From Mesorhizobium loti (GTDB taxonomy: Bacteria > Pseudomonadota > Alphaproteobacteria > Rhizobiales > Rhizobiaceae), in the NCBI RefSeq assembly GCF_001510895.1, contig NZ_LPWA01000098.1:1-64000 (forward strand): a stretch of 64,000 nt of DNA, given 5' to 3'. The notes below the pieces were generated by a model. The model saw only the letters and a program-made list of their open reading frames with translations, ran no database searches and was not told where the DNA came from. Made by a program: the position numbers and the translations under genes. Positions 7,780 through 33,035 of the stretch are shown piece by piece (the stretch's first letter is position 1; every line of letters begins with the position of its first letter).

Positions 7780-7787
7780 GCTGCAGC

Positions 7788-8660
7788 ATGTCGGCAAAGC
7801 ATCCCATCATCACCATCACCGGATCGTCGGGCGCGGGCACAACCTCGGTCAAGCGCATCTTCGAGCTGATCTTCCGGCGCGAGAACATCGAGGCCGCCTT
7901 CATCGAAGGCGACGCCTTTCATCGCTACGACCGCGCGGCGATGAAGGTGGAGGTCGCTGCCCAGGAAAAGGCCGGCAACCCGAACTTCACCCACTTCCAT
8001 GCCGAGGCCAACGAGCTCGGGACCCTCGAGGGGGTTTTCGAGGAATATGGCCGCCGGGGGACCGGAAGGACCCGCACCTACGTCCATGACGAGGATGAGG
8101 AGAAGCTGTACGGCACACCGCCGGGCAATTTCACCGAATGGCGCGAATTCGCTCCGAGCGACCTGCTCTTCTACGAAGGCCTGCATGGCTGCGTCGTCAC
8201 CGACAAGATCAACCTGGCCAGGCATGCGGACCTCAAGATCGGCGTGGTGCCGGTCATAAATCTCGAATGGATCCAGAAGATCCATCGCGACCGCGCAACG
8301 CGCGGCTATTCCACCGAGGCGGTGATGGACGTGATCCTGCGCCGCATGCCGGACTATGTCCGCTACATCGTCCCGCAATTCTCGCAGACCGCGATCAACT
8401 TCCAGCGCGTGCCGATCGTCGACACCTCCAACCCGTTCATCGCACGCTGGATTCCGACCCCAGACGAATCGATGCTGGTCATCCGCTTCGCCAATCCTCG
8501 CGGCATCGATTTCCCTTACCTGCTTTCAATGATCCACGACTCGTTCATGTCGCGGTCGAATTCCATAGTGGTGCCGGGCAACAAGCTCGACCTTGCCATG
8601 CAGCTGATCCTGACGCCGCTCATCCTGCAATTGATCGAACGCAAGAAACGTGTGTCGTGA
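7788..8660 (+). CDS. cbbP: Phosphoribulokinase
   Basis: A 290-residue bacterial-type phosphoribulokinase. The P-loop is GSSGAGTTS at residues 12-20, followed by the family segment [20 protein letters not shown]. It converts ribulose-5-phosphate and ATP to ribulose-1,5-bisphosphate, the RuBisCO substrate. ATG 7788 is preferred over an in-frame TTG at 7776, which would overlap the cbbF stop, because MSAKHPII is the usual N-terminus of this family. It lies eight bases after cbbF. Confidence 0.95.
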
Positions 8661-8670
8661 GGAGGACGCT

Positions 8671-10677
8671 ATGACAAGCCTGGCAGCATTGAAGTCCGTC
8701 GCCACCGCCGTCTCCGAGCGCGACATGGCAAATGCGATCCGCGCGCTGGCCATGGACAGCGTGCAGAAGGCCAACTCCGGACATCCGGGCATGCCGATGG
8801 GAATGGCCGATGTCGCGACGATATTGTTCAGCCGCTTCATCAACATCGACCCGACAGCGCCGGACTGGCCTGACCGCGACCGCTTCGTGCTTTCGGCCGG
8901 CCACGGCTCGATGCTGCAATATGCCCTGCACTACCTGCTCGGCTACGAAGACATGCCAATCGAGGAATTGCAGCGGTTCCGTCAGCTGGGCAGCCGTACC
9001 GCCGGCCATCCGGAGCATGGCCACGCGCTTGGCATCGAGACAACGACCGGTCCGCTCGGACAAGGCATTTCGACCGCTGTCGGCATGGCGCTGGCGGAAC
9101 GCATGCTTGCTGCCCGCCACGGCGCCGATCTCGTCGACCATTATACCTACGTGATCGCCGGCGACGGCTGCCTGCAGGAAGGCATCAGCCACGAGGCGAT
9201 CGATCTCGCAGGCCACCTGAAGCTCTCCCGCCTGATCGTCTTTTGGGACGACAACGCGATCTCCATCGACGGACCAACCTCGCTGTCGACATCGATGGAT
9301 CAGCCGGCCCGGTTCAAAGCCGCCGGATGGCTTGTGCAGTCGGTGGACGGCCACGACATGGAGGCCGTCGCCGCGGCGATCGAGACCGCGCGGCAGTCGG
9401 ATCGGCCATCTCTGATCGCCTGCCGCACGGTGATCGGCAAGGGCGCGCCCAATCTGGGCGGCTCGGAAAAGACGCATGGCGCGCCGCTGGGCGATGCGGA
9501 GATTGCCGCGACGCGCGAAAACATCGGCTGGGCCTACGCACCGTTCGAGGTGCCGGACGATATCCTGTCCGCATGGCGCGAGATTGCCGAGCGCGGGCAA
9601 GCGGCGCGGCGCGCCTGGGAGCAGCGGCTTGCCGCCTCGCCGCAGCGGCAGGCCTTCGAGCGCGCGATCGCCGGCAAATTGCCCGACGCGGTGTTCGAGG
9701 CCCTTGGCGCCTTCCGCATGGAGCATGTCGAGAAGGCGACCAAGGTTGCAACGCGCAAGGCCTCCGAGATGGCGCTGGCCGCGATCAACGGCGCAACCGA
9801 GCTGACGGTCGGCGGCTCCGCCGATCTGACGCATTCCAATCTGACGATCACCAAGGACATGGATCGCATAGTGCCGGGCAGTTATGCCGGCCGCTACATT
9901 CACTACGGCATTCGCGAGCACGGCATGGCTGCCGCCATGAACGGCATCGCGCTGCATGGCGGATTCGTGCCCTACGGCGGCACCTTTCTGTGCTTCGCCG
10001 ACTATGCTCGCGGCGCGATGCGGCTCTCGGCGCTCATGGGCCAGCGCGTCATCTATGTGATGACGCATGATTCCATCGGTCTCGGCGAGGACGGTCCGAC
10101 CCATCAGCCGATCGAGCATCTGGCGATGCTGCGGGCGACACCCAACCTAAACGTCTTTCGCCCGGCCGACATCATCGAAACGGCGGAATGCTGGGAGCTG
10201 GCGCTGAAGAGCGAGACGCGGCCGAGCGTGCTTGTGCTCTCGCGCCAGAACCTGCCGATGCTGCGCCAGGCACACGGCCAGGAGAACCTGTCCAGCCGTG
10301 GCGCTTACGTCTTGCGCGAGCCATCCGCGCACCGCGCCGTGACGCTGATCGCGACAGGCTCAGAGGTCGAGATCGCCGTTGCCGCTGCCGAACGGTTGGA
10401 GACCGAACACGGCACCGCCGCCGCGGTCGTCTCGATGCCGTGCTGGGAACTGTTCGAGAAACAGGATGCCGACTACCGGAGGTCCATCCTCGGTTCGGCG
10501 CCGCGCATCGCCGTTGAGGCGGCCGTCCGTCTCGGCTGGGATCGCTGGATCGGCGACACGGGCGCTTTTGTCGGCATGACCGGCTTCGGCGCCAGTGCTC
10601 CCGCCTCGGACCTCTACCGGCATTTCGACGTCACGCCCGAAGCCGTCGCAGCAGCGGCGCTGAGGCTCATCATCTAG
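8671..10677 (+). CDS. cbbT: Transketolase
   Basis: A 668-residue transketolase. Thiamine-diphosphate binding is shown by the [19 protein letters not shown] segment (about residues 156-175) and the N-terminal [13 protein letters not shown] motif. The pyrimidine domain has [13 protein letters not shown], with the catalytic glutamate. In the Calvin cycle it moves two-carbon units among sugar phosphates to regenerate pentoses. GAGGAGG precedes ATG 8671, ten bases after the cbbP stop. The opposite strand has a long open frame (8,620-10,119) that is a coding shadow. Confidence 0.95.
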
Positions 10678-10688
10678 GAGGACGGACA

Positions 10689-13263
<2,575 letters not shown>

Positions 13264-13274
13264 GGAGACAGACG

Positions 13275-13694
13275 ATGCGTATCACCCAAGGGGCGTTTTC
13301 CTTCCTGCCCGACCTGACCGACGACCAGATCCGCGCGCAGGTGCAGTATTGCATCGACAACAAATGGGCTGTCAGCCTCGAGGTCACCGACGACCCTCAC
13401 CCGCGCAACGTCTATTGGGAGATGTGGGGTCACCCGATGTTCGACAATCCCGACGCGGCGGCGCTGATGATGGAGCTGAACGCATGCCGTAAGCTCTATG
13501 GCGACCGCTATATCCGCGCCGTCGCCTTCGATTCCTCGCATGGCTGGGAATCGGTGAGGCTCTCCTTCATCGTCAACCGCCCGGCCGAGGAACCCGGCTA
13601 TCGGCTCGAGCGGCAGGAGGCCGCGGGTCGCACGATCCGTTACACCACCAAGCCCTACGCCGCCGACAAGCCGGCCGGAACGAGGTACGGCTGA
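13275..13694 (+). CDS. cbbS: RuBisCO small subunit, form IC
   Basis: A 139-residue small subunit starting [19 protein letters not shown], a typical form IC N-terminus, with GGAGACAGACG upstream of ATG 13275. It carries the conserved [10 protein letters not shown] segment. The C-terminal extension (after about residue 110, [17 protein letters not shown]) is the form IC/ID hairpin that lines the central pore of the hexadecamer. It assembles with CbbL as L8S8. Confidence 0.96.
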
Positions 13695-13717
13695 TCGTCG
13701 GACAGGAGAAAAATGCC

Positions 13718-14656
13718 ATGTCGGCGCCAGCCTTTGCCGAAACGGATGTGCCTCAAGGTGCCGTCCCGACGGCGATCGATCTGCGTGAGGAATTCGAAAC
13801 TTCCGGCGTCAAGAACGTCCTGGCCGAGCTCGACCGCGAGCTGATCGGGCTCGCCCCGGTCAAAAGACGCATCCGCGAGACGGCGGCGCTCCTGCTGGTC
13901 GAGCGGGCACGCCGCCGCATGGGCCTCGCCCATGAGACGCCGACGCTGCATATGAGCTTCACCGGCAATCCCGGCACCGGCAAGACGACCGTCGCGCTGC
14001 GCATGGCCGACCTGCTGCATCGGCTGGGCTATATCCGCAAAGGTCATCTGGTTTCGGTGACCCGTGACGACCTGGTCGGCCAGTATATCGGCCACACCGC
14101 GCCCAAGACCAAGGAGATCCTGAAGAAGGCGATGGGCGGCGTGCTGTTCATCGACGAGGCCTACTATCTCTATCGCCCCGAGAACGAGCGCGACTACGGC
14201 CAGGAGGCGATCGAGATCCTGCTACAGGTAATGGAGAACCAGCGCGACGACCTGGTGGTGATCCTTGCCGGCTACGCGCAGCGCATGGATCGCTTCTTCG
14301 ACAGCAATCCGGGATTCCGCTCGCGCATAGCCCACCACATCGACTTTCCCGACTATTCCAACGACGAGCTTCTCAGGATCGCGGAACAAATGCTCGACCA
14401 GCAAAATTACCTGTTCGACACGAAGGCAACCGCAGCAATGGCCGACTACATCGCACGCCGCCGCGCGCAGCCGCATTTCGCCAATGCCCGCTCGATCCGC
14501 AACGCACTTGACCGGGCACGGCTGCGGCAGGCCAACCGCCTGTTCGAGAGCATCAAGGGGCCGCTCGACGCAAAGGCGCTGTCGACGATCTCTGCCGAGG
14601 ACATCACCGCCAGCCGGGTCTTCGCGCTAAATCCAGGCGAAGGAGAAAGCAAATGA
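13718..14656 (+). CDS. cbbX: Red-type RuBisCO activase, AAA+ ATPase
   Basis: A 312-residue CbbX: Walker [10 protein letters not shown] (about residues 86-94), Walker [14 protein letters not shown] and the sensor region ILAGYAQRM. CbbX is an AAA+ protein that remodels inhibited form IC/ID RuBisCO by acting on the large-subunit C-terminus and is allosterically activated by RuBP. It lies 23 bases after cbbS and its stop overlaps the cbbE start by four bases. Confidence 0.95.
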
Positions 14657-15339
14657 CCGGGAAGACCATCATCGCCCCTTCCGTTCTGTCGTCCGATTTC
14701 TCGCGGCTCGGCGACGAGGTCGAAGCGGTCGCGCGGGCAGGCGCCGATTGGATTCACCTCGACGTGATGGACGGACATTTCGTGCCCAACATCACCTTCG
14801 GCCCGCCGGTGATCAAGGCAATTCGCGATCGAACGGACAAGGTCTTCGACTGTCATCTGATGATCGCGCCGGCCGATCCCTATATCGCGGCTTTCGCCGA
14901 CGCAGGTTGCGACATCATCACGGTGCATGCCGAGGCCGGACCGCATCTAGACCGTTCGCTGCAGGCGATCAGGAGCCTCGGCAAGAAGGCCGGCGTGTCG
15001 CTCAATCCGTCGACGCCGGAAAGCGTCATCGAATATGTTCTCGACCGGCTCGATCTTGTGCTTTTGATGACGGTCAATCCGGGTTTCGGCGGCCAAGCCT
15101 TCATTTCGGCGGTCATCGACAAGGTCAGGCGTGTCAAAGCGCTGATCGGCCAACGTCCGATCGACATCGAGATCGACGGTGGCGTCACGCCCGACACTGC
15201 TCCCCTGGTCACCGCGGCCGGCGCCAATGTGCTCGTCGCCGGCTCCGCCGTCTTCAAGGGTGGCACCGAGGCGGCCTATCGCGCCAATATCGGCGCGATC
15301 AGACAGGCCGCCGACGGAGCGATCCGGCGAGCCGCGTGA
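14653..15339 (+). CDS. cbbE: Ribulose-phosphate 3-epimerase
   Basis: A 228-residue TIM-barrel epimerase. The family patterns are [49 protein letters not shown] and EIDGGV, which include the zinc ligands (H, D, H, D) and catalytic aspartates. It interconverts xylulose-5-phosphate and ribulose-5-phosphate, feeding phosphoribulokinase. The start overlaps the cbbX stop (ATGA). It is probably specific to the cbb operon; a housekeeping rpe may exist elsewhere. Confidence 0.94.
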
Positions 15340-20145: not shown

Positions 20146-21130
20146 CGTTGCGATTAATCGGCCTCATATCCGGCAGCTTTGAAGAAGTTTCGGCATTCCG
20201 TCGGCTCGAACAGGTGGCAGATGTCGCCGAGCGCTTCGCAAAGTGTGTCGAAGGTTCTGGCCGCCTTCTTTCGCAGCCGCGCCTTGAGTTTTGAATAGGC
20301 CATCTCGATCGGATTGAGGTCGGGCGAGTATGGCGGCAGGAACAGGAGCCAGGCGCCTTTTTGGCGGACCAGCTGGGCTGCGCGCTCGGTCTTGTGGAAT
20401 CCGACATTGTCGAGGATGACGACATCGCCGGGCGACAGCTGGGGAGCAAGCTGCGTTTCGACATAGCCCTCGAAGATGGTGGCATTCATCGGCGCGTTGA
20501 CGATCCAGGGAGCGACAAGACCGTGGCATCGCAGTCCGGCGATGAAGGTCTGCGTCCGCCATTTGCCGAATGGCGCATGCGTCCTGAAGCGCTTGCCCTT
20601 CGGCGCCCAGCCGGTGCGTTTGGTCAGCTTGGTGTTGGTCGACGTCTCATCGATGAAGATCAGCCGCGTCAAAGCCTTGTTGAAGAAGCGCTTTCGCCCC
20701 GCCCGATCCACAACTCACGCGCCTGGCGCACGTCAGCCCGCTGCTGCTCGCTGGCCTGCAGAGTTTTTTTATGACTGAGCCCTAGGCGATTAAGCAGACG
20801 CCCAACATTGGAGCGGTGCACGCTCACCCCGCGCCCCTCCAGTTCGACGCAAAGCTCATCTAGCGTCAGTTCGCCGACCTCAGCCAGCCGTAAGCGAACA
20901 AACTCAGCATGCGGCTCAAGCTTCCCGCCTCCCACATGGCCCTGCCGGCGCGCTTCAAGCGAACCAGTCTGCCGGCGCAGCTTGATCAGATTGTTCACAA
21001 AACGAGGCGAAACGCGGAAATGGCGCGCAGCCTCGCGGTGACCATGTCCCTCATCGACATACGCAACAACACGCCGACGCAACTCAAGCGGTAGCGGCTT
21101 GCCCATCGCGGTTTCCTTTCAACCGCAATG
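20146..21130 (-). mobile_element. IS630-family insertion sequence
   Basis: Bounds are set by a weak terminal inverted repeat: CGTTGCGATT at 20146-20155 against AACCGCAATG at 21121-21130 (8 of 10 matching when inverted). They enclose one transposase in two overlapping frames. A TA dinucleotide, the IS630 target, lies just outside the left end (CTAAAG). It is inserted 44 bases after the ABC transporter operon. The exact ends need comparison with other copies. Confidence 0.6.
20154..21106 (-). CDS. IS630-family transposase, two frames joined by -1 frameshift
   Basis: The first frame (21106 down to 20669) carries the helix-turn-helix part, [40 protein letters not shown] and a linker. The second frame (20711 to 20154) carries the DDE nuclease part: [13 protein letters not shown] (first Asp), [12 protein letters not shown] (second Asp) and [18 protein letters not shown] (catalytic Glu). 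The frames overlap by 43 bases around the G-rich GGGCGGGGCGAAAGC, and the second frame is -1 relative to the first. Many IS630 elements are known to make transposase by programmed frameshifting. Both parts look intact, so the element may be active. Confidence 0.85.
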
Positions 21131-21511
21131 AATCACGAACTCGCAGCAAGGGGAATCTGGAGGCTTCTGTGAGGTCCGTCGGCGCGACGGAGCGGCCGGG
21201 CTGGTTGTCGGACCTCATTGCAAGCCGGATTGAACGGAGCCGCGGGCAGGACTGGCACTATGGGGATTGTGGCCTGGCGCGGCGTTGGGGATCAACTTCG
21301 CCCGGCGGATGGAGGGCGTGTGTGATGCGGCGGCGGCGAAGGATGCCATGGTCGAAGACTGAACCTTGAATGCGCGTACCGTCGGACAGGCTGTTGTGCC
21401 TTCTATCGCCCTGCTGGCTGCTTCCAGCCTTGTGCGGCGGGTCGCGGATTGGCGTGCCGGCGCGCATGGCGTCGGATGGGTCCATTGGTGATGTGGACGC
21501 GCCCGGCATGA
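21131..21511. other. Non-coding segment between the IS630 and IS91 elements
   Basis: About 380 bases with no supported gene. It probably includes the terminal non-coding part of the IS91-type element and remnants of the interrupted sequence. No target duplication or attachment site could be recognised. Confidence 0.4.
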
Positions 21512-22702
21512 TCATGAGGTATCGTTCCAGAAGGAGCTCGGCGGCGCTTGTCCGCATCGCCAGATGGCGAGCGTGGTCATCGTTGCTCCGCAGCATGGGC
21601 AGCGATGCGTTGCCGCAAGGCGCTCGGCGGTGGCAGCGGCGCTTTTGGCCTCTGGCTCGATATCGTCTTGCTGCGGACTGGCCAGCAGTCGGCGGCACAG
21701 GTCGAGCCTGGCGGCGCGATGGCCGTTGGCAAGAAAGCCGTAATGGCGGATGCGGTGGAAGCCGTCGGGCAGCGTGTGCAGGAGGAAGCGGCGGATGAAC
21801 TCGTGCGCGTCGATCGTCATGACCTTCGTCCTGCCGCCATGACGATAATCCCGCCAGCGGAACGCGACGCGATCGTCGTCCATGCCGACCAACCGGGAAT
21901 TGGCGACAGCGACACGATGGGTGTAGCGGCCGAGATAGGAAAGCACCTGTTCCGGTCCACCGAAGGGCGGCTTGGCATAGACCACCCAGTCAAGGCGGCG
22001 CGCCTTGGCCAACAAGCCGGTGAAGGCGGCTGGCTCGGTCAAGCCGGCGAGATCGCCGAAGAACTTGAGGCTGTGCGCGTCGAAGGCCGCTCGCAGCTCC
22101 TCCAGAAAGCGGCGTCGAAACAGGCGCGACAGCACGCGCACGGGCAAAAAGAAGCCCGGCCTGCACGAGATCCAGCGTGTGCCGTCAGGCGAGACGCCAC
22201 CGCCCGGCACGATGCAATGCAGGTGGGGATGGTATGTGAGCGTTTGGCCCCAGCTGTGCAGCACCGCGATGAGGCCGATCTCGGCGCCCAGATGCCTGCG
22301 ATCGGCGGCGATAGTGCGCAGTGTCTCGGCCGCCACCTTGAACAGGATCGTGTAGAGCGCCGTCTTGTTCTGGAAGGCGATCGCGGCGATCTCGGCCGGC
22401 AGCGTGAACACCACGTGGAAGTAAGCGACCGGCAGAAGCTCGGCTTGCCGCGCGGCGAGCCATTGCCGGCAAGCCTGCCCCTGACATTTGGGGCAATGCC
22501 GGTTGCGGCAGGAGTTGTAGGCCACGCGGATCGCCCCGCAGGATCGGCAGCCCTCGACATGGCCGCCGAGTTCGGCCGTCCGGCAGAACTCGATCGCGCT
22601 CATCACACGCCGCTCGACGCGCCCGAGATGGCCGTCATGGGCCTGTCGATACGCCTCGCCATGGCGGCGGAAGATATCCGCCACCTCCAGTCTCGCCGGC
22701 AT
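21512..22702 (-). CDS. IS91-family HUH transposase
   Basis: A 396-residue transposase. An N-terminal zinc-binding domain (GGHVEGCRSCGAIRVAYNSC, then NRHCPKCQG) is followed by the HUH motif in LTYHPHLHCIVPGGG. Later come the tyrosine-bearing segment VLSYLGRYTHRVAVAN and a second cysteine pair HRCPCCG near the C-terminus. It nicks single-stranded DNA for rolling-circle transposition. It starts 13 bases after the recombinase stop. Confidence 0.9.
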   Translation of the reverse strand: MPARLEVADIFRRHGEAYRQAHDGHLGRVERRVMSAIEFCRTAELGGHVEGCRSCGAIRVAYNSCRNRHCPKCQGQACRQWLAARQAELLPVAYFHVVFTLPAEIAAIAFQNKTALYTILFKVAAETLRTIAADRRHLGAEIGLIAVLHSWGQTLTYHPHLHCIVPGGGVSPDGTRWISCRPGFFLPVRVLSRLFRRRFLEELRAAFDAHSLKFFGDLAGLTEPAAFTGLLAKARRLDWVVYAKPPFGGPEQVLSYLGRYTHRVAVANSRLVGMDDDRVAFRWRDYRHGGRTKVMTIDAHEFIRRFLLHTLPDGFHRIRHYGFLANGHRAARLDLCRRLLASPQQDDIEPEAKSAAATAERLAATHRCPCCGATMTTLAIWRCGQAPPSSFWNDTS

Positions 22703-22715
22703 GGGCGGGACCGGA

Positions 22716-23576
22716 TCAGCCCGGCGGCACGACCTCGACGTTCAGCCGGTCGAGCGGGCTCGTCGTGCGCCGGATTAGGCCGTTCGAGACCCTGGTGTAG
22801 CGCGCCGTGCTCGACAGGTTGTTGTGGCCGAGCAGAACCTGGATGATGCGGATGTCGGTGCCGTTCTCCAGAAGATGCGTGGCGAAGGAATGCCTGAGCG
22901 TGTGGACCGTCACGCGCTTGTCGATGCCGGCGGCCGCACGCGCCGAACGACAGGCCGAATACAACACCTGCACATCGATAGGGCGATCGGCGCCGCGGCC
23001 GGGAAACAGCCAGTCCCGCGGCTTCGCCAGCCGCCAGTAGACCCGCAGGATACGCAGAAGCTGCGCCGACAGCATCACGGTGCGGTCCTTGCCGCCCTTG
23101 CCGTGCTCGACCCGGATCACGCCGCGACCGCTGTCGATGTCACCGACCTTCAACCCGACGGTCTCCGAGGCGCGAAGGCCAGCAGCGTAGGCTGTCGTCA
23201 GGGCCGTGCGAGTCTTCAGGCTCGGCACCGCTTCCAGGAACCTGACCACCTCGTCGGCGCTCAACACCACCGGCAGCGTGCGTGGCGAGCGGGCATAGAC
23301 GATCCGCTCCGGGATCTCGGCATGGCCCAACGTCACGCCGTAGAAGAACCGCAGCGCACACACCGTCTGGTTCAGCGCCGGCCACGAAATCCCCGTTGAG
23401 ACCAGATGCACCTGGAAGGCGCGCACGTCCTCAAGGCCAAGCCGGTCAGGGGAGCGGCCAAAGTAGCGCGAAAACTTCGCCACCGCATGCACGTAGGATC
23501 GCTGAGTGGCCGGCGACAGATTGCGGATCGTCATATCCTCGATCATGCGCCGGCGAAGAGGGCTCAACTCGACCAT
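22716..23576 (-). CDS. Tyrosine recombinase (phage-integrase family) of the IS91-type element
   Basis: A 286-residue XerC/D-like integrase. It has an N-terminal SAM-like core-binding domain (SPATQRSYVHAVAKFSRYF). The catalytic domain carries Arg in YAAGLRASETVGL, Lys in GKGGKDR, His-x-x-Arg in HTLRHSFATHL, His in LLGHNN and the tyrosine nucleophile in TARYTRVS. The ATG at 23576 is preferred over a longer frame start because CAGGAGC lies upstream. It may resolve or assist transposition of the element. Confidence 0.9.
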   Translation of the reverse strand: MVELSPLRRRMIEDMTIRNLSPATQRSYVHAVAKFSRYFGRSPDRLGLEDVRAFQVHLVSTGISWPALNQTVCALRFFYGVTLGHAEIPERIVYARSPRTLPVVLSADEVVRFLEAVPSLKTRTALTTAYAAGLRASETVGLKVGDIDSGRGVIRVEHGKGGKDRTVMLSAQLLRILRVYWRLAKPRDWLFPGRGADRPIDVQVLYSACRSARAAAGIDKRVTVHTLRHSFATHLLENGTDIRIIQVLLGHNNLSSTARYTRVSNGLIRRTTSPLDRLNVEVVPPG

Positions 23577-23692
23577 CTCATTGCTCCTGTTCTCGAGATT
23601 GCGCTTCAACAGCCGCAATCCTTCAAAACAGAAGCGTCACCCGCAAACCGATCCGCCAAATGCCGCGTCAGCGGCTTCGTTCAATCCTGAAT

Positions 23693-24124: not shown

Positions 24125-24816
24125 GAGAATTCCTCCTGTTGCCGGGGCGCGGTGCATCGAGACTGCATCACCGCGCCAGTTGGCGACATGCTGAAAGCCC
24201 GGTCAACCTCTCATCGCCTCCATATAGGACCAAAGGAGGATTGCCCGGCCCATCGCCAACTGCGTTTCGGGGCATCTTCATGACCCGTCCCGCATCCATC
24301 TTCCTAGGTTCTTTCCACACCTCGCTCACTACCGACAGCCAATAAGGGTCATCGCCAACACGGTCGCTAAAATATGTCGAAATAAATCCAATTTCTATCA
24401 CATGGATAATACATCGAAGTATGATCCCTAAATTTTTATTCTCCGATCGCCACCATTCTACGGCCTGGGGTCGTGAAAAGTTTCTATTATTCTTCTATAT
24501 ATTGCGACGCAACAAAAAATATTGCAGTGCAAAATTTCCAGAAGGGTTTTTCCTTGCCTGACATTTTGCAATGACATAGCCTTACATCGTTTCCGGCTTC
24601 AAGGACGCCGCTGTAATTCGGGAGCGGCGGCAGTCTTTCGTAGGCCAATTGGGTGGGTACAGGGCTAGGCTAGATAGGTAGAGGTCAGAAATGTTCCTCT
24701 GCTGAACTGGTTTAGGTCGTGACACGCTGCCGGAAATACTTCCCTAAATGAATCGCTTGAACAAGCTCTTGCGAGCTTGAAGTTCGATTTCTTGTTGTCA
24801 ACCTGGGAGGATTTTA
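24125..24816. promoter_or_regulatory. Upstream region of xoxF with paired palindromes
   Basis: A 692-base region with no supported gene, AT-rich from about 24,380 to 24,550. Two perfect 11-base palindromes, TTGCGACGCAA (24502-24512) and TTGCAGTGCAA (24522-24532), share the form TTGC-N3-GCAA and have centres exactly 20 bases apart. A related half-site, ATTTTGCAATGAC, lies at 24563-24575. A possible sigma-70-like promoter, TTGCCT (24554-24559) with TAGCCT 17 bases on, would start transcription near 24,590 and give a leader of over 200 bases. GGGAGG at 24805-24810 is the xoxF ribosome binding site. Confidence 0.6.
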
Positions 24817-26718
24817 ATGCGCGCACTTACGCAAGCTACCTACATCGCAACGACCTCTGCGCTACTGTCGTTCGGCGCGCTCTATACAGCGTCAGCCAAC
24901 GAAGAACTCGCGAAAATGGCCGAAAACCCGAAAGACTGGGTGATGCAGACCGGCGATTACGCCAACACCCGATATTCCAAGCTCAAGCAGATCACCAAGG
25001 AAAACGTGAAGAACCTGCAGGTCAAATGGACCTTCTCGACTGGCGTGCTGCGCGGCCATGAGGGCGGACCATTGATCATCGGCGACGTGATGTATGTTCA
25101 CGCACCGTTCCCGAACACCGTCTATGCTCTCGATCTCAACAAGGACGGAAAGATCCTCTGGAAGTACGAGCCCAAGCAGGACACGAACGTCATTCCGATC
25201 ATGTGCTGCGATACGGTCAATCGCGGCGTCGCCTACGGAGACGGCAAGATCATTCTCAACCAGGCCGACACCACCGTCGTTGCGCTCGACGCCAAGACCG
25301 GCAAAGTCGTGTGGTCGGTCAAGAACGGCGAAAACACCGACGGCGGAAAGGGTGAATCCGGCACGTCGGCGCCCGTGGTCGTCAAGGACAAGGTTCTCGT
25401 CGGTGTCTCCGGCGCGGAATTCGGCGTCCGCGGCTGGTTGGCCGCCTACAATCTGAAGGATGGCAAGCTCGCCTGGAAGGCTTATTCGGAAGGTCCGGAT
25501 GCAGACACCCTGCTCGACCCCGAGAAGACCACACAGCTTGGCAAGCCGGTCGGAAAGGACTCCGGCACGAATACTTGGGAGGGCGAACAGTGGAAGACGG
25601 GAGGCGGCACGACATGGGGATGGTATTCCTATGATCCCAAGCTCAACCTCGTCTACTACGGCACCGGCAATCCCTCGACCTGGAACCCGGTTCAGCGCCC
25701 CGGAGACAATCGCTGGTCGATGACCATCTTCGCCCGCGATGCCGATACCGGCATGGCCAAATGGGTCTACCAGATGACCCCACATGACGAATGGGACTAT
25801 GACGGTATCAACGAGATGATCCTGGTCGACGGCATGGAGGTCAAAGGCAAAAAGCATGATGTGCTGGTGCATTTCGACCGCAACGGTTTCGCCTACACCA
25901 TGGATCGCGCCACCGGCGACCTTCTCGTTGCCAAGAAGTACGATCCGGCGGTGAACTGGGCGACTGAGGTCAACATGGACCCCAAGAGCAAGGAATACGG
26001 CCGTCCGCAGGTCGTGGCGAAATATTCGACCCAGCAGAACGGTGAAGACACCAACTCGACGGGTATCTGCCCGGCAGCGCTTGGAACCAAGGACCAGCAG
26101 CCGGCCGCCTACTCGCCGAAGACCGGGCTGTTCTATGTGCCGACCAACCATGTGTGCATGGACTATGAGCCATATAAGGTGAGCTACACGGCCGGCCAGC
26201 CTTATGTGGGCGCCACGGTGTCGATGTATCCTGCGCCTGGCGGTGACGGCAATATGGGCAACTTCATTGCCTGGGATGCTGCCAAGGGCGAGATCGTGTG
26301 GTCAAAGCCCGAGCAGTTCTCGGTGTGGTCGGGCGCGCTGGCGACCGCTGGCGACGTCATCTTCTACGGAACGCTTGAAGGCTACATCAAGGCGGTCGAT
26401 GAGAAGGGCAAGGAACTCTATAAGTTCAAGACCCCGTCCGGCATCATCGGCAACGTCACGCCTTTCGAGCATGACGGCAAGCAGTACATCGCCGTTCTGT
26501 CCGGCGTCGGCGGATGGGCCGGCATCGGCCTCGCCGGCGGGCTGCTGTCACCCGATAACGCCGCTGCCTGGCATGGCGCCGTCGATCAGGGCCGCGCTCA
26601 AGGCGATCAGGCCGCGGTCGTTGGAACTGCCGGTCTCGGAGCAGTCGGTGGCTACGCGGCACTTGCCGACTACACGACGCTGGGCGGCCAGCTGACCGTC
26701 TTCGGTCTTCCGGACTGA
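24817..26718 (+). CDS. xoxF: Lanthanide-dependent methanol dehydrogenase, PQQ-containing
   Basis: A 633-residue periplasmic quinoprotein. The signal peptide ends near residue 27 (LYTASA-NEE). The eight-bladed propeller shows repeated DAKTGKVVW-type tryptophan-docking motifs, and the adjacent cysteines that contact PQQ are C130-C131 ([10 protein letters not shown]). [11 protein letters not shown] holds the catalytic aspartate D327 and, two residues on, D329. That second aspartate ligates the lanthanide in XoxF enzymes and is absent from calcium-dependent MxaF. The enzyme oxidises methanol to formaldehyde and passes electrons to a cytochrome c. It is followed by its cytochrome, xoxJ and the pqq genes. 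Overall pattern fits the XoxF5 clade, which I did not test. Confidence 0.95.
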
Positions 26719-26873: not shown

Positions 26874-27397
26874 ATGTTTGTTCGCATTGCAATTTCCGTT
26901 CTCGCCCTGCTCTTCTGCCTCTGGCCGGCTCAAGTCTGGCGCGGGCCGAGGACAGCGCCGAAAAAGCCAAGGTGGTGAAGGATGAGGGCGGCAAGTATTT
27001 GGACGCGGATGGAAATCCAACCTACAAGATCGAGAACGGAACCGTGGATTGGTATACGTTCAGCGGTTATCGCCGCTATCATTCGGACTGCCATGTCTGT
27101 CATGGACAGGACGGAACGGGTTCGAGCTACGCGCCGGCCCTGGCGAACAGCCTGAAAAACATCGACTACCCCACTTTCCTCTCGATCGTCGCCCAGGGCC
27201 GCAAGAATACCGCCAACGGCAAGGAAAACGTCATGCCTGCCTTCGGCGACAACAAGAACGTCTATTGCTACCTGGACGATCTCTACGTCTATCTGCGCGC
27301 CCGCGCCGATGGCGCGGCACCCCGCGGAAGGCCGCCCAAGCACGAAGACAAGGCTCAGGCGGCGAAGGATGCCGAAAAAACCTGCATGGGTGGATGA
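26874..27397 (+). pseudogene. Methanol-metabolism c-type cytochrome (XoxG-like), frameshifted in the signal peptide
   Basis: The body of about 140 residues, with haem motif CHVCH in RYHSDCHVCHGQDGTG and axial methionine in NVMPAFG, is the four-cysteine cytochrome family linked to methanol oxidation. Its frame has no usual start before GTG 26972, which would remove the signal peptide. ATG 26874, with AAGGAAG upstream, opens a signal peptide (FVRIAISVLALLFC) in another frame. One base added near 26917-26925 joins it to LAGSSLARAEDSAEKAK. A periplasmic cytochrome needs that signal, so this is either a missing base in the read or an inactive gene. It would accept electrons from XoxF. Confidence 0.82.
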
Positions 27398-27398
27398 C

Positions 27399-28289
27399 AT
27401 GACCGGCGGTGACGCATCCAAGCCACGCGTTATCTTGCTGATCCTCGGCGCGCTCGCCATGTCGCCCGCGCTCGCCATGTCGCCGACGAACGCCCAGGCG
27501 CAAGGCGCGGGCCTCGGGGCCGCGGGCGAACTGGTCGATCCGGATACGCTGCGCGTCTGCGCCGATCCTTCGAACATGCCGTTCACCGACCAGAGCGGCC
27601 AGGGTTTCGAAAACAAGCTGGCTGAGCTGGTTGCCAGGAAGACGGGAAGAAAGTCGGTCGCCTACACATGGTTTCCAACCGTCATAGGCTTCGTGCGCAA
27701 CACGCTTGCTGCCAACCGGTGCGACGTCATCATGGGCTATGCGCAAGGTGATGAGCTGGTGCAGAACACCAACGCTTACTATCGCTCCTCCTATGTGCTT
27801 GTGCATCCGAAGGGCGACGACCTCGAGGGTGTCGAGACGATCGAGGATCCGAAACTCACCGGCAAGAGGATTGGCGTCGTCGAACGCACGCCGCCAACTG
27901 CCAACATGGCCGCCAACAAACTCTTGCGAACGGCAAAAATCTACCCGCTGGCCGTCGATACGCGCGTCACCCCGTCAATGGGAGAGGTCGTGATCAAGGA
28001 CATGCTTGCCGGCAAGATCGACGCAGCGATCCTGTGGGGACCGATGGCAGGCTACTATGCCAAGCAACTCAAGGCGGATGTCGCGATCGTCCCACTGGTC
28101 AAGGAAAAGACCGGCTCGCGCATGTCCTACCGCATCACCATGGGAGTGCGTCCATCCGATCAGGAATGGAAGCGTACGCTCAACAAGGTGATCCGGGAAA
28201 ACCAGGCAGAGATCAACAAGCTCCTGCTCGACTACAACGTGCCGTTGATAGACGAACATGACAACGCGATCACGGCAGCGCCGGGATGA
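27399..28289 (+). CDS. xoxJ: XoxJ/MxaJ-type periplasmic binding protein of methanol dehydrogenase
   Basis: A 296-residue exported protein of the extracellular solute-binding family 3 fold, of the quinoprotein-dehydrogenase-associated type. Signal peptide: KPRVILLILGALAMSPALAMS. Family segments include LRVCADPSNMPFTDQSGQGFENKLAEL, CDVIMGYAQGDELVQNTNAYYRS and ILWGPMAGYYAKQ. XoxJ is thought to help activate or mature XoxF; the detailed role is unresolved. ATG 27399 lies one base after the cytochrome stop, with GGGTGGA upstream. Confidence 0.9.
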   Translation: MTGGDASKPRVILLILGALAMSPALAMSPTNAQAQGAGLGAAGELVDPDTLRVCADPSNMPFTDQSGQGFENKLAELVARKTGRKSVAYTWFPTVIGFVRNTLAANRCDVIMGYAQGDELVQNTNAYYRSSYVLVHPKGDDLEGVETIEDPKLTGKRIGVVERTPPTANMAANKLLRTAKIYPLAVDTRVTPSMGEVVIKDMLAGKIDAAILWGPMAGYYAKQLKADVAIVPLVKEKTGSRMSYRITMGVRPSDQEWKRTLNKVIRENQAEINKLLLDYNVPLIDEHDNAITAAPG

Positions 28290-28637: not shown

Positions 28638-28749
28638 CCTTGCCGCGTGAGGTCTTCGCGACGGGCTTTGCCGCGGGAAAGGCGGGCGCAAAGCCGTTTA
28701 CCGCCGTGAATTTTCTGCCGGTCGAATGGGCCGCGGAGCAGGCATTGCC

Positions 28750-29688
28750 ATGCGCGTGAAGATCATCGGATCGGCGGCGGGAGGCGGCTTTCCGCAATGG
28801 AATTGCAACTATCGCCTGAGCCGCGCGGCTCGCACCGGGATGTCCAGCGTGCATTCACGAACCCAATCATCCATCGCCGCATCGGCGGACGGGACAGGCT
28901 GGGTTCTCTTCAACGCGTCGCCCGACATTCGCCAGCAGATTGCGCAAACGGCTGAACTGCAGCCCGCAGCCGACGCGCCGCTGCGTTCGACGCCTATCCG
29001 CGCGGTGGTGCTGACCAACGCCGACGTAGACCATATCGCCGGCCTGCTCAGCCTGCGTGAACGACAGCCTTTCGCAATCTATGCAACCGCGCAGGTGCTG
29101 GCGACGCTGGAGGCGAATTCGATTTTCAATGTTCTCGATCCGGCGATCGTGCCGCGGCGCCTCCTGGCGCCAACGAAGGAACTGGCGATCTGCGATGCGG
29201 ACGGCCACGAGACCGGTGTGGTCGTCGACGCCTTTCCCGTGCCCGGGAAGATCGCGCTCTATCTCGAGCAAAGAGGCGATCCCAGCGCCGATTTCAGCTC
29301 CGACACGGGCGACACGATCGGAGTCCGCATCACCGGGGCCGGCAGTCGCGACGCTGTCTTCTACATCCCGGGCTGCGCGCGCATCGATGCCTCCCTGCGC
29401 GCTCGTGTGGCCGATGCCGCCTGTCTTCTGTTCGACGGCACCGTCTACACAGACGACGAGATGATCGTTGCCCGCGTCGGCCAGAAAACCGGTGCGCGCA
29501 TGGGGCACATCGCAATGTCTGGAGAGGCGGGTTCGATTGCCGGCTTGGCCGATGTGAAGATCGGCCGCCGTATCTTCGTCCATATCAACAACACCAATCC
29601 TGTTCTCGACGAGGATTCCGCCGAACACGCGGCGGTCAAAGCAGCCGGCTGGGAAGTCGCCAGCGATGGGATGGAGATGGAATTTTGA
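28750..29688 (+). CDS. pqqB: PQQ biosynthesis protein PqqB (MBL fold)
   Basis: A 312-residue metallo-beta-lactamase-fold protein. ATG 28750 opens with VKIIGSAAGGGFPQWNCNY, the standard PqqB N-terminus. The motif TNADVDHIAGLL corresponds to the usual HxHxDH site with changes normal for PqqB, and INNTNPVLDEDS is near the C-terminus. It is considered a hydroxylase acting on the PqqE-crosslinked Glu-Tyr product. Its stop overlaps the pqqC start. Confidence 0.94.
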   Translation: MRVKIIGSAAGGGFPQWNCNYRLSRAARTGMSSVHSRTQSSIAASADGTGWVLFNASPDIRQQIAQTAELQPAADAPLRSTPIRAVVLTNADVDHIAGLLSLRERQPFAIYATAQVLATLEANSIFNVLDPAIVPRRLLAPTKELAICDADGHETGVVVDAFPVPGKIALYLEQRGDPSADFSSDTGDTIGVRITGAGSRDAVFYIPGCARIDASLRARVADAACLLFDGTVYTDDEMIVARVGQKTGARMGHIAMSGEAGSIAGLADVKIGRRIFVHINNTNPVLDEDSAEHAAVKAAGWEVASDGMEMEF

Positions 29689-30443
29689 GCGATTTCCGCG
29701 ACGCGGCCAGAGGTGGCCTGTCCAAGAGCGAGCTTGAGGCCGTGCTGCGGCAGGTCGGTGACGAGCGCTATCACAACCGTCATCCCTTCCATTACAGAAT
29801 GACCAGCGGCGCCCTGTCGAAGGCCGAAATGCAGGCCTGGGCGCTGAACCGCTATTGCTACCAGGCCGTCATCCCGCGCAAGGACGCCACGATCCTGGCA
29901 CATGCCGAGGATCCGGCGTTTCGCGCCGCCTGGCGCAAACGCATCGAGGACCACGACGGCGAGGATGGCTGGAGCGGCGGCATCGCGCGCTGGCTGCATC
30001 TGGCGACCTCGCTCGGGCTCGATGCCGAAGCCGTCAAGAGCGAAAGGCTGGCGCTACCGGCGACCCGTTTCGCCGTCGGCGCCTACCTTTCCTTCTGCAC
30101 GAACCGGACGCTGTTCGAGGCGGTCGCGTCTTCGCTGACCGAGATGTTCTCGCCGCTGATCATCGGCGAGCGGGTGCCGGCGATGCTGGCGAAATACGAC
30201 TACATCACCGAGGATACGCTGGCCTATTTCAACCGGCGGCCCGAACAGGCATCGCGCGATGCCGACTTCGCCCTCGCCTATGTGCTCAGCCACGCCGATA
30301 CGGCGGAGCGCCAGCAGCAGGCGATCGATGCGCTGGTGTTCAAATGCGATATACTCTGGGCCATGCTCGACGCGCTTCAACATGCATATGGCGCGCCAGG
30401 AAACATACCCCCCGGCGCCTTCCGACCGGAGTCGGTCCAATGA
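29685..30443 (+). CDS. pqqC: Pyrroloquinoline-quinone synthase PqqC
   Basis: A 252-residue PqqC of the TenA-like helical fold. It carries YHNRHPFHYRM, NRYCYQAVIPRKD, IEDHDGEDGW and LSHADTAERQQQAIDAL. The enzyme performs the last ring closure and eight-electron oxidation forming PQQ. The start is TTG 29685, overlapping the pqqB stop (TTGA); no ATG lies in frame before the conserved region, and GGAGATGG lies upstream. Its stop overlaps pqqD. Confidence 0.93.
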   Translation: MSDFRDAARGGLSKSELEAVLRQVGDERYHNRHPFHYRMTSGALSKAEMQAWALNRYCYQAVIPRKDATILAHAEDPAFRAAWRKRIEDHDGEDGWSGGIARWLHLATSLGLDAEAVKSERLALPATRFAVGAYLSFCTNRTLFEAVASSLTEMFSPLIIGERVPAMLAKYDYITEDTLAYFNRRPEQASRDADFALAYVLSHADTAERQQQAIDALVFKCDILWAMLDALQHAYGAPGNIPPGAFRPESVQ

Positions 30444-30736
30444 TGGCGCTGCGCCAAAGAGCCATCGTGTCGTTGCAATCGGTGCCATCGCTGCCCAAGC
30501 ACGTGCGCATACAGTACGACCCCGTGCGGCAGGCCTTCGCCGTGCTTTCGCCGGAGAAGGTATTCTGGCCGAACGAGATCAGCCTCGATATATTGCGCCG
30601 CTGCGATGGGCGGTCCACCGTCGGCCACATCATCGCCCACCTTGCCTCCGACTATGACGCCGATCAGGAGGCCGTGACGGCCGACGTCATCGCCTTTCTG
30701 CAGGAATGGTCCGACAAGCAGCTGGTGAGGCTATGA
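30440..30736 (+). CDS. pqqD: PqqA-binding chaperone PqqD
   Basis: A 98-residue peptide chaperone of the RRE (RiPP recognition element) type. VRIQYDPVRQAFAVLSPEKVFWPNE and SLDILRRCDGRSTVGHII are the family pattern, with LLLxPE varied here to AVLSPE. It binds PqqA and presents it to the radical-SAM enzyme PqqE. ATG 30440 overlaps the pqqC stop by four bases (ATGA) and its own stop overlaps the pqqE start. It is not fused to PqqC, unlike in some methylotrophs. Confidence 0.92.
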   Translation: MMALRQRAIVSLQSVPSLPKHVRIQYDPVRQAFAVLSPEKVFWPNEISLDILRRCDGRSTVGHIIAHLASDYDADQEAVTADVIAFLQEWSDKQLVRL

Positions 30737-31920
30737 GCGAGTCCATTCTCCCTCCGATCGGCATGCTGGCGGAACTGACGCATCGCTGCCCGCTGCAGTG
30801 CCCTTATTGCTCCAATCCGCTCGAATTGCTGAAGGCCAATCGCGAGCTCGACACGCTGACTTGGCTCGATCTCTTCTCGCAGGCCGCCGATCTCGGTGTT
30901 CTGCAGGTGCATCTGTCCGGCGGCGAGCCGACCCTGCGCCGAGACCTGGAGCAATTGATCGCCGGGCTTTCGGCTCGCGGTGTCTACACCAACCTCATCA
31001 CCGCCGGTATCGGCATAGCCGAAGGCCGCATCGAGGCATTTGCCGAAGCCGGGCTCGACCACCTGCAACTGAGCTTTCAGGGCGCCCGGCCGGCAACCAC
31101 CGATCGCATCGGCAACCATCAGGGCAGCCACGAAAAGAAGCTGGAGACGGCACGCCGCGCGCGGGCGGCCGGCCTGCCGCTTACCATCAATGCGCCAATC
31201 CACCGTCACAATATCGAGGAAGTGCCGGAATTCATCGATCTTGCCCTTTCGCTGGACGCGGAGCGGCTTGAGATCGCCAACGTCCAGTATGCCGGCTGGG
31301 CGCTGGCCAACCGCAATGCGCTGATGCCCGAACGTGCCGCGGTCGACCGGCAGGCAGACATCGTCGCGGCGGCGCGCGAACGGCTCGCCGGCATCATGAA
31401 CATCGATTTCGTCACGCCGGACTATTTTGCCATCTACCCCAAACCGTGCATGGGCGGCTGGGCGCGCGACGCCTTCATGGTCGCCCCGGACGGCACGGTG
31501 CTGCCGTGCCATGCCGCGCAGACCATTCCTTCGCTTCGCTTCGAGCGCTTCGGAGAGCGCACGCTTGCCGAAATCTGGACCGATTCACCGGCATTCAATG
31601 CCTTCCGCGGCACCGATTGGATGCAGGAGCCGTGCCGAAGCTGCGAGCGTCGCGAGCTCGACTGGGGCGGCTGCAGGTGTCAGGCGATGGCGATTGCCAG
31701 CGACGCCGCGGCTACGGATCCAGCCTGCATCAAGTCGCCGCTTCACACTCGCATGGCGATGCTGATCGACGCCGCGTTGTCAGAGGCCGCGCCGGAGGCA
31801 GATGAAAATGGCGCGGAAGATTTCATTTTCCGCCGGATAGGCGCCACAACTCGCCCGGACATACCTGACCACACGCCAATTCACCAACAACCGTCGATGG
31901 CGACATTGCGGAGCCGCTGA
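30733..31920 (+). CDS. pqqE: PqqA peptide cyclase PqqE (radical SAM)
   Basis: A 395-residue radical-SAM/SPASM enzyme. The SAM cluster motif CPLQCPYC (C19, C23, C26) is followed by LSGGEPTLRRDLEQLI. The C-terminal auxiliary clusters are ligated by cysteines in PKPCMGGWARDAF, TVLPCHAAQ, EPCRSCERRELDWGGCRCQ. It forms the carbon-carbon bond between Glu and Tyr of PqqA. ATG 30733 overlaps the pqqD stop. The last about 35 residues (after FIFRRIGATTR) are a longer tail than needed for the core. Confidence 0.94.
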   Translation: MSESILPPIGMLAELTHRCPLQCPYCSNPLELLKANRELDTLTWLDLFSQAADLGVLQVHLSGGEPTLRRDLEQLIAGLSARGVYTNLITAGIGIAEGRIEAFAEAGLDHLQLSFQGARPATTDRIGNHQGSHEKKLETARRARAAGLPLTINAPIHRHNIEEVPEFIDLALSLDAERLEIANVQYAGWALANRNALMPERAAVDRQADIVAAARERLAGIMNIDFVTPDYFAIYPKPCMGGWARDAFMVAPDGTVLPCHAAQTIPSLRFERFGERTLAEIWTDSPAFNAFRGTDWMQEPCRSCERRELDWGGCRCQAMAIASDAAATDPACIKSPLHTRMAMLIDAALSEAAPEADENGAEDFIFRRIGATTRPDIPDHTPIHQQPSMATLRSR

Positions 31921-31964: not shown

Positions 31965-33035
31965 TCAGGCCAGGAGCCGCCACATTCGCACACGACCCGT
32001 ACCACGCAATTCCGTTTCCGCGAGTGGGTCGCAAGCAAAATTTGGTCCAAGCAGTTCGTGGGTTGCATCCGAAATACGGATTTCATCGGGCTCCGCGGAC
32101 TTTTGAATACGTGCGGCGAGATTGACGGTGTCGCCCCACAGGTCATAGGCAAACCGCCTTTTGCCTATGACACCGGCGACGATTGGTCCTGAGTGAACCC
32201 CAATTCTCAGGCTTAGCGGCTCTCCTGCGAAGCGTTCGCGCCTGGCCGCCTCCCGCAGTTCAAGTGCATAGTGCGCAAGGGCTTCTGCATGATCGGGTCG
32301 CGCGGCGGGCAGGCCAGCGACCGCCATCACACAATCGCCGATTGTCTTGATCTTTTCGCAGCCGTATTGTTCCGAGAGCAGATCCGCCGCCTTGAAGAAG
32401 TAATTTAAAATAGCGAGCGTCGTCGCGGCTCCGACGCTCCGCGCTCTTTCCGTAAAACCGACGATGTCGGCAAAAAGCACACTGACCTCTGCGTGGCTGT
32501 CTGCAATTTGTTCGTCCGCCTTTAACCGCTCTGCGATCGACGCCGGAAGAATGTTGAGGAGCAGGGATTCGGCGCGCCGGTATTCACGCGTCAATCCCTC
32601 CTGGCTCTCTCTCAACGCCTCGTTCGTCGATTGTAATTTCTCGTTGAGTTGACGCTCCCTCTCCTGCAGGAGCGTCATTTCATAAGCCTTCTGTTGAAGC
32701 CGCTGTTGGTTGTCGCGCTCGGGAGTAGCGTCGAGAAAGAGCAGCCACACCGAGCCTCCGTCTTCAAAGAGATGAAGGTTCGCGACACGCCCGCCGGGCA
32801 GTTCCACCATGGGCATATGAAATGGAAGCTCCGGGCAAGGCAGCAGCCCTTCCATGAACTCAAGCTGCTCGGCAACAGGCGCACCAATGCGAAGTGATGA
32901 GAGTCCGTAATGTTCAATATTACCGCCCTTCGCAGCTATGCGAAGCTGGGCGTCAATTTTCAGATATGCGACAGAGCGCTCATTATAGAAGAAATCGTAA
33001 ATCCAGCTTCCGACTTCTTTCGGCAATCTGGGCAT
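31965..33035 (-). CDS. Class III adenylate cyclase with PAS-like sensor and coiled coil
   Basis: A 356-residue soluble protein. Residues 1-105 look like a small PAS-type sensor (YLKIDAQLRIAAKGGNIEHYG); 107-155 are a predicted coiled coil. The class III catalytic domain spans about 183-355. Metal aspartates are D190 in VLFADIVGFTERA and D234 in KTIGDCVMA. The purine-reading lysine is K230, with aspartate in YDLWGDTVNLAARI, which points to cyclic AMP rather than cyclic GMP. It is the last gene of a four-gene set with a small GTPase three bases upstream and an OmpA-domain protein, suggesting control by the GTPase. That link is inference. Confidence 0.88.
   Translation of the reverse strand: MPRLPKEVGSWIYDFFYNERSVAYLKIDAQLRIAAKGGNIEHYGLSSLRIGAPVAEQLEFMEGLLPCPELPFHMPMVELPGGRVANLHLFEDGGSVWLLFLDATPERDNQQRLQQKAYEMTLLQERERQLNEKLQSTNEALRESQEGLTREYRRAESLLLNILPASIAERLKADEQIADSHAEVSVLFADIVGFTERARSVGAATTLAILNYFFKAADLLSEQYGCEKIKTIGDCVMAVAGLPAARPDHAEALAHYALELREAARRERFAGEPLSLRIGVHSGPIVAGVIGKRRFAYDLWGDTVNLAARIQKSAEPDEIRISDATHELLGPNFACDPLAETELRGTGRVRMWRLLA

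Follow-up and report, generated by a model that had tools for sequence, protein, structure and literature searches.

Putative PhaR boxes and a predicted structured leader RNA upstream of the lanthanide methanol dehydrogenase gene xoxF in Mesorhizobium loti and other Hyphomicrobiales

The xoxF locus

The window analysed here, a stretch of 64,000 nucleotides of Mesorhizobium loti DNA (contig NZ_LPWA01000098.1, positions 1 to 64,000 of the forward strand), carries the gene of a PQQ-dependent lanthanide methanol dehydrogenase, xoxF, followed on the same strand by genes for a cytochrome c, a periplasmic protein and PQQ synthesis-type products. The protein was recognised by Pfam and by its HDEWDYDG motif, which we take to carry the extra aspartate of the lanthanide enzymes, and its closest PDB match is the lanthanide-dependent XoxF 6oc5. 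The genes are arranged as follows:

24817..26718, + strand: xoxF, PQQ-dependent lanthanide methanol dehydrogenase (HDEWDYDG motif, Pfam)
26972-27397, + strand: xoxG-like cytochrome c (Pfam)
27309-28289, + strand: xoxJ-like periplasmic protein (Pfam)
28498, + strand: pqqA-like peptide (open reading frame)
28726-29688, + strand: pqqB (Pfam metallo-beta-lactamase fold; name read from the translation)
29685-30443, + strand: pqqC (open reading frame; name read from the translation)
30706-31920, + strand: pqqE (open reading frame; name read from the translation)

To the left of xoxF, at 20154-23618, lie mobile-element genes, namely a DDE_3 transposase beside a second reading frame, an IS91-type-like transposase open reading frame (ORF) and a phage-type integrase, with Pfam as the basis for 20154-20711 and 22716-23618 only. 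Several ORFs with stretches resembling adenylate/guanylate cyclases are found within 27 kb (at 31965-33035, 42170-45583, 48960-50534 and 57525-58865), the Pfam analysis having covered the one at 31965-33035. Upstream of the xoxF-pqq genes, at 6730-15339, we noted Calvin-cycle-like ORFs for a fructose bisphosphatase, a phosphoribulokinase, a transketolase and a ribulose-phosphate epimerase, all named from their translations.

Tandem palindromes in the promoter region

Three DNA elements precede the region that is predicted to be transcribed:

24502..24512, no strand assigned: distal palindrome, TTGCGACGCAA, putative PhaR box 1
24522..24532, no strand assigned: proximal palindrome, TTGCAGTGCAA, putative PhaR box 2
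24554..24580, + strand: putative core promoter, TTGCCT-N15-CATAGC, with an inferred transcription start at about 24587

A sequence-only reading of this DNA had reported two perfect 11-bp palindromes upstream of xoxF, and both are there, at 24502-24512 and 24522-24532, with their centres at 24507 and 24527, 20 bp apart, that is, 310 and 290 bp upstream of the xoxF start (24817). The window contains five TTGC-N3-GCAA sites where 1.6 are expected, a count reached in two of 100 shuffles, and the exact palindrome pair at 20-bp spacing occurs only here in the 7.46-Mb genome. Pairs of the shorter core TGC-N3-GCA, 18-23 bp apart, number two in the window, where 40 shuffled windows average 0.075, and the second of them (8572/8594) lies inside the ORF at 7776-8660. 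The same reading had placed a third half-site at 24563, which did not survive inspection: read by eye, the 11-mer centred there fits two of the eight motif letters, and the nearest better partial matches, each with six of the eight (TTGCCTGACAT at 24554-24564 and TTGCAATGACA at 24566-24576), both fall within the inferred core promoter. In the core-promoter region, ATGACATAGC is invariant in all 11 orthologs of the genus, and a similar TTGCC...CATAGCC precedes the RNA described below in loci L069 and L072. A scan with the sigma-70 consensus gave no site at the putative xoxF promoter.

The interpretation of the pair as a tandem operator before xoxF, which was to be checked by conservation in relatives, is supported by the comparison, in that the palindromes are kept upstream of xoxF in many Hyphomicrobiales. 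In the genus, xoxF orthologs of at least 85% identity were found in 11 of 37 genomes, that of M. loti included (61 genomes examined), and an alignment read by eye places a TTGC-N2-YGCA site before all 11 genes; at the second box position, likewise by eye, eight orthologs have the full core, one (G002) has a degenerate form, and two (G020 and G016) have a single site only. Measured from the predicted start of the RNA, 29 of the 31 loci of the genus (L036-L066) have a proximal core at -66/-67, and those with two boxes have the distal core at -86 to -89. Among the loci listed, a proximal-type core at -65 to -72 recurs in several other genera, boxes at -68 to -72 or -89 to -94 are present in Phyllobacterium, Rhizobium, Nitratireductor, Aureimonas, Aurantimonas, Fulvimarina and Jiella, and the boxes of Ancylobacter are far upstream, at -158 to -173. 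Five of 41 xoxF loci (L060, L062-L065) have a full TGC-N3-GCA at -34.

These positions are matched by an excess in counts. Within 150 bp before the RNA, 36 of the 41 xoxF loci have at least one TGC-N3-GCA and 14 have a pair (2.7 and 0.025, respectively, in shuffled sequences); within 200 bp, the figures are 66 and 31 of 76 named xoxF loci (8.2 and 0.08 when shuffled; L226 was omitted for its short upstream DNA); and 16 further xoxF loci from other families yield a core in 10 and a pair in six. These sets share species, and kindred species do not count as independent. The core is missing from five of the 41 loci (the distant L069, L072 and L074-L076), 10 of the 76 and six of the 16. The spacing of 20 bp, which the sequence-only reading had described as two helical turns, holds in the window but not as a fixed value, with 20-22 bp in pairs of the genus, 31 bp in L067 and 21-24 bp in other genera (the last range from the matches listed, with at most four loci per genus). 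We also tried the TTGC-N3-GCA pair pattern (gap 9-12) as a stand-alone marker and obtained 37 strand-wise matches in 37 genomes, compared with 14 for a reversed control pattern. The pattern alone is therefore no clean marker, and position and phasin context were used instead.

PhaR as the probable regulator

We consider it probable that the palindromes upstream of xoxF are boxes for PhaR (AniA). PhaR is the most likely regulator because the phasin promoters of relatives carry the same tandem and because published PhaR sites match. A search for the pair in relatives led to a nearly identical site before a phasin gene in genome G005. We then compiled 50 regions upstream of phasin genes (PF09361), consisting of 30 returned loci and 20 stretches picked from further rows, with all seven matches from the M. 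loti genome included; the core is present in 37 of them and a pair in 28 (shuffled means 8.1 and 0.035), and the corresponding figures for 119 other stretches taken as comparison are 18 and one. The paired boxes of the phasin regions are 18-33 bp apart, with 19-23 bp in 23 of the 28. In M. loti itself, three of the seven phasin upstream regions (L133, L151-L156) have a pair and four have a core.

The genome of M. loti contains a gene for PhaR (G000:C175:78462-78581, PF05233, 65 bits). No tandem was found in the region upstream of this gene, which has one isolated core at -143; an autoregulatory site before phaR occurs in some species and is not a required feature of PhaR. The cores of the two xoxF boxes, TGCGACGCA and TGCAGTGCA, both fit the PhaR core GC-N3-GC[GA].

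The best described counterpart is the phaP1 promoter of Bradyrhizobium diazoefficiens, where the PhaR motif is given as NGCN3GC[GA]N3 and two boxes, TGCGACGCACAA and TGCGTTGCACTA, are PhaR sites (PMC10888616). With a single box mutated, a shift took at least 1 uM PhaR instead of 0.5 uM, and weak binding remained at 2 uM when both boxes were mutated; the motif, a loose consensus as published, was also present in 66 of 78 promoters of PhaR-activated genes (PMC10888616). The xoxF boxes share with phaP1 the core GC-N3-GC[GA], with TGCGACGCA identical to the distal xoxF core, and the arrangement in two tandem boxes, within the same bacterial order. They differ in that the target here is xoxF and no PHB gene, in that they lie upstream of the inferred -35 element, whereas those of phaP1 stand on either side of the -35, one of them overlapping the -10, and in their start-to-start distance of 20 bp, compared with 29 bp in phaP1 (positions -101/-72) (PMC10888616). 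The main text of the phaP1 study mentions neither methanol nor xoxF (PMC10888616). The looseness of the consensus, the lack of a pair upstream of phaR in M. loti, the different placement relative to the promoter and the loci that have no core all count against PhaR at xoxF.

A link between PhaR and xoxF has been reported from Methylorubrum extorquens AM1, a member of another family of the order, in which a phaR mutant (with the cad plasmid) had lower xoxF1 and mxa mRNA and higher mRNA of the phasin genes gap11 and gap20 (PMC6520949). A PhaR effect on xoxF is already in print, and the addition made here is the conserved tandem putative PhaR box at the promoter. The AM1 case has in common with ours the PhaR dependence of xoxF1 mRNA and differs in that the available part of the report describes no PhaR site or direct binding at xoxF1; the drop in xoxF1 mRNA may be indirect, because the phaR mutation altered about a thousand genes (PMC6520949). 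The conserved tandem box at the xoxF promoter makes a direct effect of PhaR on xoxF likely, as judged from sequence comparison.

Two other kinds of regulator have to be weighed. In other bacteria, regulators of the FlhR/FlcR/PedR2 type govern xoxF or alcohol dehydrogenases that depend on lanthanides, and two-component systems such as FlhSR and MxbDM regulate xoxF through response regulators; the target gene is the same as here. A LuxR-type response regulator of this kind, controlling C1 genes, might thus bind the palindromes in place of PhaR, and the position of the boxes upstream of the promoter would suit such an activator. We regard this as unlikely, given that the same tandem stands in 28 of the 50 phasin promoters, which are not known to be controlled by FlhR/FlcR/PedR2-type proteins, and that the core equals published PhaR sites. 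In the literature searched, no paper combining xoxF with a promoter, an inverted repeat and a response regulator was found.

Paired TTGC-N3-GCA sites also occur in three relatives (L096, L108 and L116) before genes for binding proteins of sugar ABC transporters, beside genes for LacI-type regulators (functions read from the translations). This is evidence against PhaR and in favour of a LacI-type or other sugar-responsive repressor as the reader of the pairs, a reading that we consider highly improbable: nothing evident links the sugar-transport genes with xoxF, sites at phasin genes are numerous, and PhaR might itself act at the sugar-transport sites.

The original observation of the palindromes is correct in its main fact, and with PhaR as the probable regulator it is less mysterious, the PhaR box being known in kind. 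Nothing found in the analysis connects the palindromes as such with the sensing of lanthanides or methanol; should this region take part in it, the folded leader RNA would be a better candidate than they are.

A predicted structured RNA in the xoxF leader

From the palindromes to xoxF, the alignment of the genus shows high conservation, and an inverted repeat within this stretch, UUUCCGGC...GCCGGAAA, is kept in a more distant family. The predicted elements of this leader are:

24589..24736, + strand: conserved structured leader RNA with a three-way junction (covariance models R1 and R2; covariation)
24590-24597/24729-24736, + strand: P1 helix
24604-24613/24625-24635, + strand: P2 helix, with the loop GGGAG at 24620-24624
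24643-24646/24715-24718, + strand: P3 helix
24739..24744, + strand: CUUCCC element, complementary to the P2 loop GGGAG or to the xoxF Shine-Dalgarno sequence GGGAGG
24805..24810, + strand: xoxF Shine-Dalgarno sequence GGGAGG, predicted to pair with 24739-24744

The segment 24582-24745 folds better than its shuffled versions (z -3.18). The structure that RNAalifold derived from seven sequences was poorer, with a positive covariation term, so a structure read by hand was taken and then tested. In 20 distinct sequences, the three helices have 93.9% of cells paired, compared with 31-58% when the structure is slid along the alignment, and 15 of the 22 pairs show changes on both sides, amounting to 52 such cells where 13.0 are expected from shuffling; none of 500 shuffles reached 52. 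In 67 distinct rows, which include four weak second matches of alignment A6 (L223, L234, L242 and L252), there are 213 both-side cells compared with 58.9 after shuffling. These counts lean towards the structure because the alignments were fitted to it; in alignment A4, made without the structure, P2 already covaries in four pairs. Covariation is least in P3, with two pairs in the 20 sequences and one in the 67 rows. In the predicted ensemble of the whole window leader, P2 forms with a probability of 0.99 and P1 with 0.2-0.3, and P3 is absent.

Because the compensatory changes preserve pairing as the letters change (52 cells compared with 13.0, 0/500 shuffles), DNA sites or codons are insufficient to account for the conservation, and an explanation by an upstream ORF, an attenuator or overlapping DNA signals alone, to which a weak terminator-like hairpin at 24772-24786 might point, is most improbable, the terminator count itself being near chance (one found, 0.5 expected).

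A search against the 4227 families of Rfam returned, at E <= 10, two sub-threshold matches only, both outside the leader RNA; no match in the window reached a gathering threshold, and seven other loci gave none at E <= 0.5. Among the literature matches listed under the themes riboswitch, candidate RNA, untranslated region, xoxF, lanthanide and PQQ, there was no account of this RNA. On the comparative evidence, the predicted leader is a well-supported structured RNA and a more surprising part of the region than the PhaR boxes.

Distribution of the leader RNA

The first covariance model, R1, was built from 11 sequences and detected the RNA in 44 of 146 genomes of the genus at E < 1e-21, four weak matches (E 0.02-0.066) being left out; all 30 of the genus loci that were fetched stand upstream of xoxF. 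At E <= 1.51e-3, the same model found the RNA in 13 of 297 genomes of the order, in each case upstream of xoxF, and 14 weaker matches (L077-L090), with no xoxF in the stretch, were taken as chance. With the second model, R2, and a limit of E <= 0.01, matches came from 29 of the 397 genomes of the order, again all before xoxF (29/29), and 15 of these loci were absent from the training alignment (L304-L319 less L311). Wider searches with R2 yielded two of 385 genomes of the class and seven of 299 of the phylum, every one in Hyphomicrobiales; in these class- and phylum-wide model searches, the leader RNA was found only in this order.

A pattern scan of named genomes gave at least 116 loci, and in 109 of the 116 listed a xoxF-like gene lies downstream, at a median distance of 85 nt. 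As for the other seven, three were taken as chance, three run off the stretch and one (L239) precedes a ClpS-like ORF. When 80 of the 116 listed loci were scanned with the model, 77 matched at E 8.7e-9 or better. Pattern matches in Spirosoma, Streptomyces and Phycisphaeraceae were taken as chance, the Phycisphaeraceae match having scored E 0.0092 with R2. The genes that follow xoxF in the window are also found elsewhere: of 41 loci with 5 kb of DNA beyond the RNA, 40 have xoxG there, 40 have xoxJ and 14 have pqqB.

Several individual loci deserve description. In Mesorhizobium sp. RMAD-H1 and Paramesorhizobium deserti (L250, 5126-5335, and L282), what comes after the RNA is the remnant of a xoxF start, with another PQQ dehydrogenase (49% identity) some 300 nt downstream, as though the RNA had outlived a gene replacement; both loci are included in the 109 with a xoxF-like gene. 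Aureimonas sp. Leaf427 has a copy of the RNA (L239, 5260-5377, 70.6 bits) about 200 nt before the ClpS-like ORF and another copy before xoxF (L245). Plasmids of Rhizobium sullae and Phyllobacterium zundukense carry the leader RNA, whereas xoxF of Sinorhizobium meliloti 1021 pSymB and xoxF of Microvirga ossetica (L299 and L303) gave no match to it. The xoxF-like genes of L015-L017 gave none either.

The CUUCCC element and a possible translational switch

In the predicted ensemble of the window leader, CUUCCC pairs with the Shine-Dalgarno sequence with a probability of 0.98-0.99. This pairing was scored on 83 leaders whose Shine-Dalgarno sequence fitted a list of forms, and it exceeds 0.5 in 48 of the 71 that have UCCC. 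Among 87 distinct leaders, 75 combine GGGA in the loop with UCCC at most 16 nt from P1, 10 have neither and two have GGGA in the loop without UCCC. Over the four 16-nt windows that follow, leaders with UCCC number 0, 2, 11 and 0 of the 87, where shuffling predicts 7.6. A Shine-Dalgarno sequence containing GGGAG is found in 66 of the 69 scored leaders with both elements and in none of the 10 with neither. All 10 of the latter belong to Ancylobacter and may therefore represent a single event. The four weak second matches of A6 named above (L223, L234, L242 and L252) were left out of the leader and pairing counts and of the 76-locus box count.

A further 16 loci, outside the 87-leader counts save for L311, which is the same place as L014, have UCCC in nine cases, with a GGGAG Shine-Dalgarno sequence in three of those, and the latter is present in four of the seven without UCCC. 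The scheme of CUUCCC and Shine-Dalgarno pairing is not general and fails in several distant families. Covariation between the loop and CUUCCC was not significant in two permutation tests (660/2000 and 609/5000). According to the energy model, forcing P1 and P3 in the window leader costs 8.8 kcal/mol and leaves the Shine-Dalgarno sequence paired, so that the two states would be exclusive only through a pseudoknot between the loop and CUUCCC, a pairing that the folding program cannot model.

In the mechanism that we propose for the window and its near relatives, the P2 loop GGGAG of a stabilised fold would bind CUUCCC, and the Shine-Dalgarno sequence GGGAGG would be freed; otherwise, CUUCCC would pair with GGGAGG and translation would be off. 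We put forward this translational switch as a hypothesis with about even chances, and which of the two states a ligand would favour is a guess. The leader resembles translational riboswitches that occlude the Shine-Dalgarno sequence in its conserved multi-helix domain with conserved junction and loop letters and, in the window and near relatives, in an element with two possible pairing partners, the domain and the Shine-Dalgarno sequence. It differs from them in that it belongs to no Rfam family, is almost solely linked to xoxF and has a pairing scheme that is not general.

Proposed two-layer control of xoxF and its implications

Taken as a whole, we lean towards a model in which xoxF is under control in two layers, by PhaR boxes in the DNA and by a switch-like leader RNA. 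The tandem PhaR (AniA) boxes would tie transcription of xoxF to the PHB storage state. PhaR would here act as an activator, in contrast to its repression of phasin genes, as is suggested by the location of the boxes, some 60 and 80 bp upstream of the inferred start, and by the lower xoxF1 mRNA in the phaR mutant. The transcript would begin with the three-way-junction RNA, probably a cis-regulatory switch just before xoxF.

As to what such a switch might sense, a lanthanide ion and PQQ are the first candidates because XoxF needs both, and they are guesses. Among the matches listed, no RNA stands before separate lanthanide-uptake or pqq genes, which is evidence against a general lanthanide or PQQ sensor. 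It is a tentative proposal, in our estimate less likely than not, that xoxF is headed by a natural riboswitch which responds to a lanthanide ion (or PQQ) inside the cell and opens the Shine-Dalgarno sequence, with PhaR at the tandem boxes linking the promoter to PHB.

There is a serious chance, if one short of even, that the leader is instead a structured 5' UTR that is bound by a protein or a small RNA, or that protects the message, and is no ligand-sensing riboswitch. Many riboswitches head several kinds of genes, and this RNA is almost confined to one (29/29 and 109 of the 116 listed loci); nor are the switch elements general, and the covariation tests of the pseudoknot were not significant (660/2000 and 609/5000). 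Such a role fits less well with junction and loop letters conserved over long distances and with covarying helices, which are usual for ligand-binding RNAs.

It is an open question how cells detect lanthanides and which signals decide between their methanol dehydrogenases, and in a 2026 profile of Paracoccus denitrificans the working of the lanthanide switch is named among the unsolved points (PMC12848317). The unexplained fall of xoxF1 mRNA in the phaR mutant (PMC6520949) could be accounted for directly by the PhaR boxes. They also fit a report on a methylotroph dependent on lanthanides, in which PHB content and the expression of xoxF change with the lanthanide supplied (PMC10848612). The conserved RNA heading xoxF across many genera of one order provides a defined molecule of about 150 nt. 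We know of no natural lanthanide-binding riboswitch described before, and none was among the literature matches listed for lanthanide riboswitches; if the leader were one, it would be the first known and could serve as a biosensor. If the full proposal is true, a single methanol dehydrogenase gene would be under two sensors, one for a metal or cofactor and one for carbon storage.
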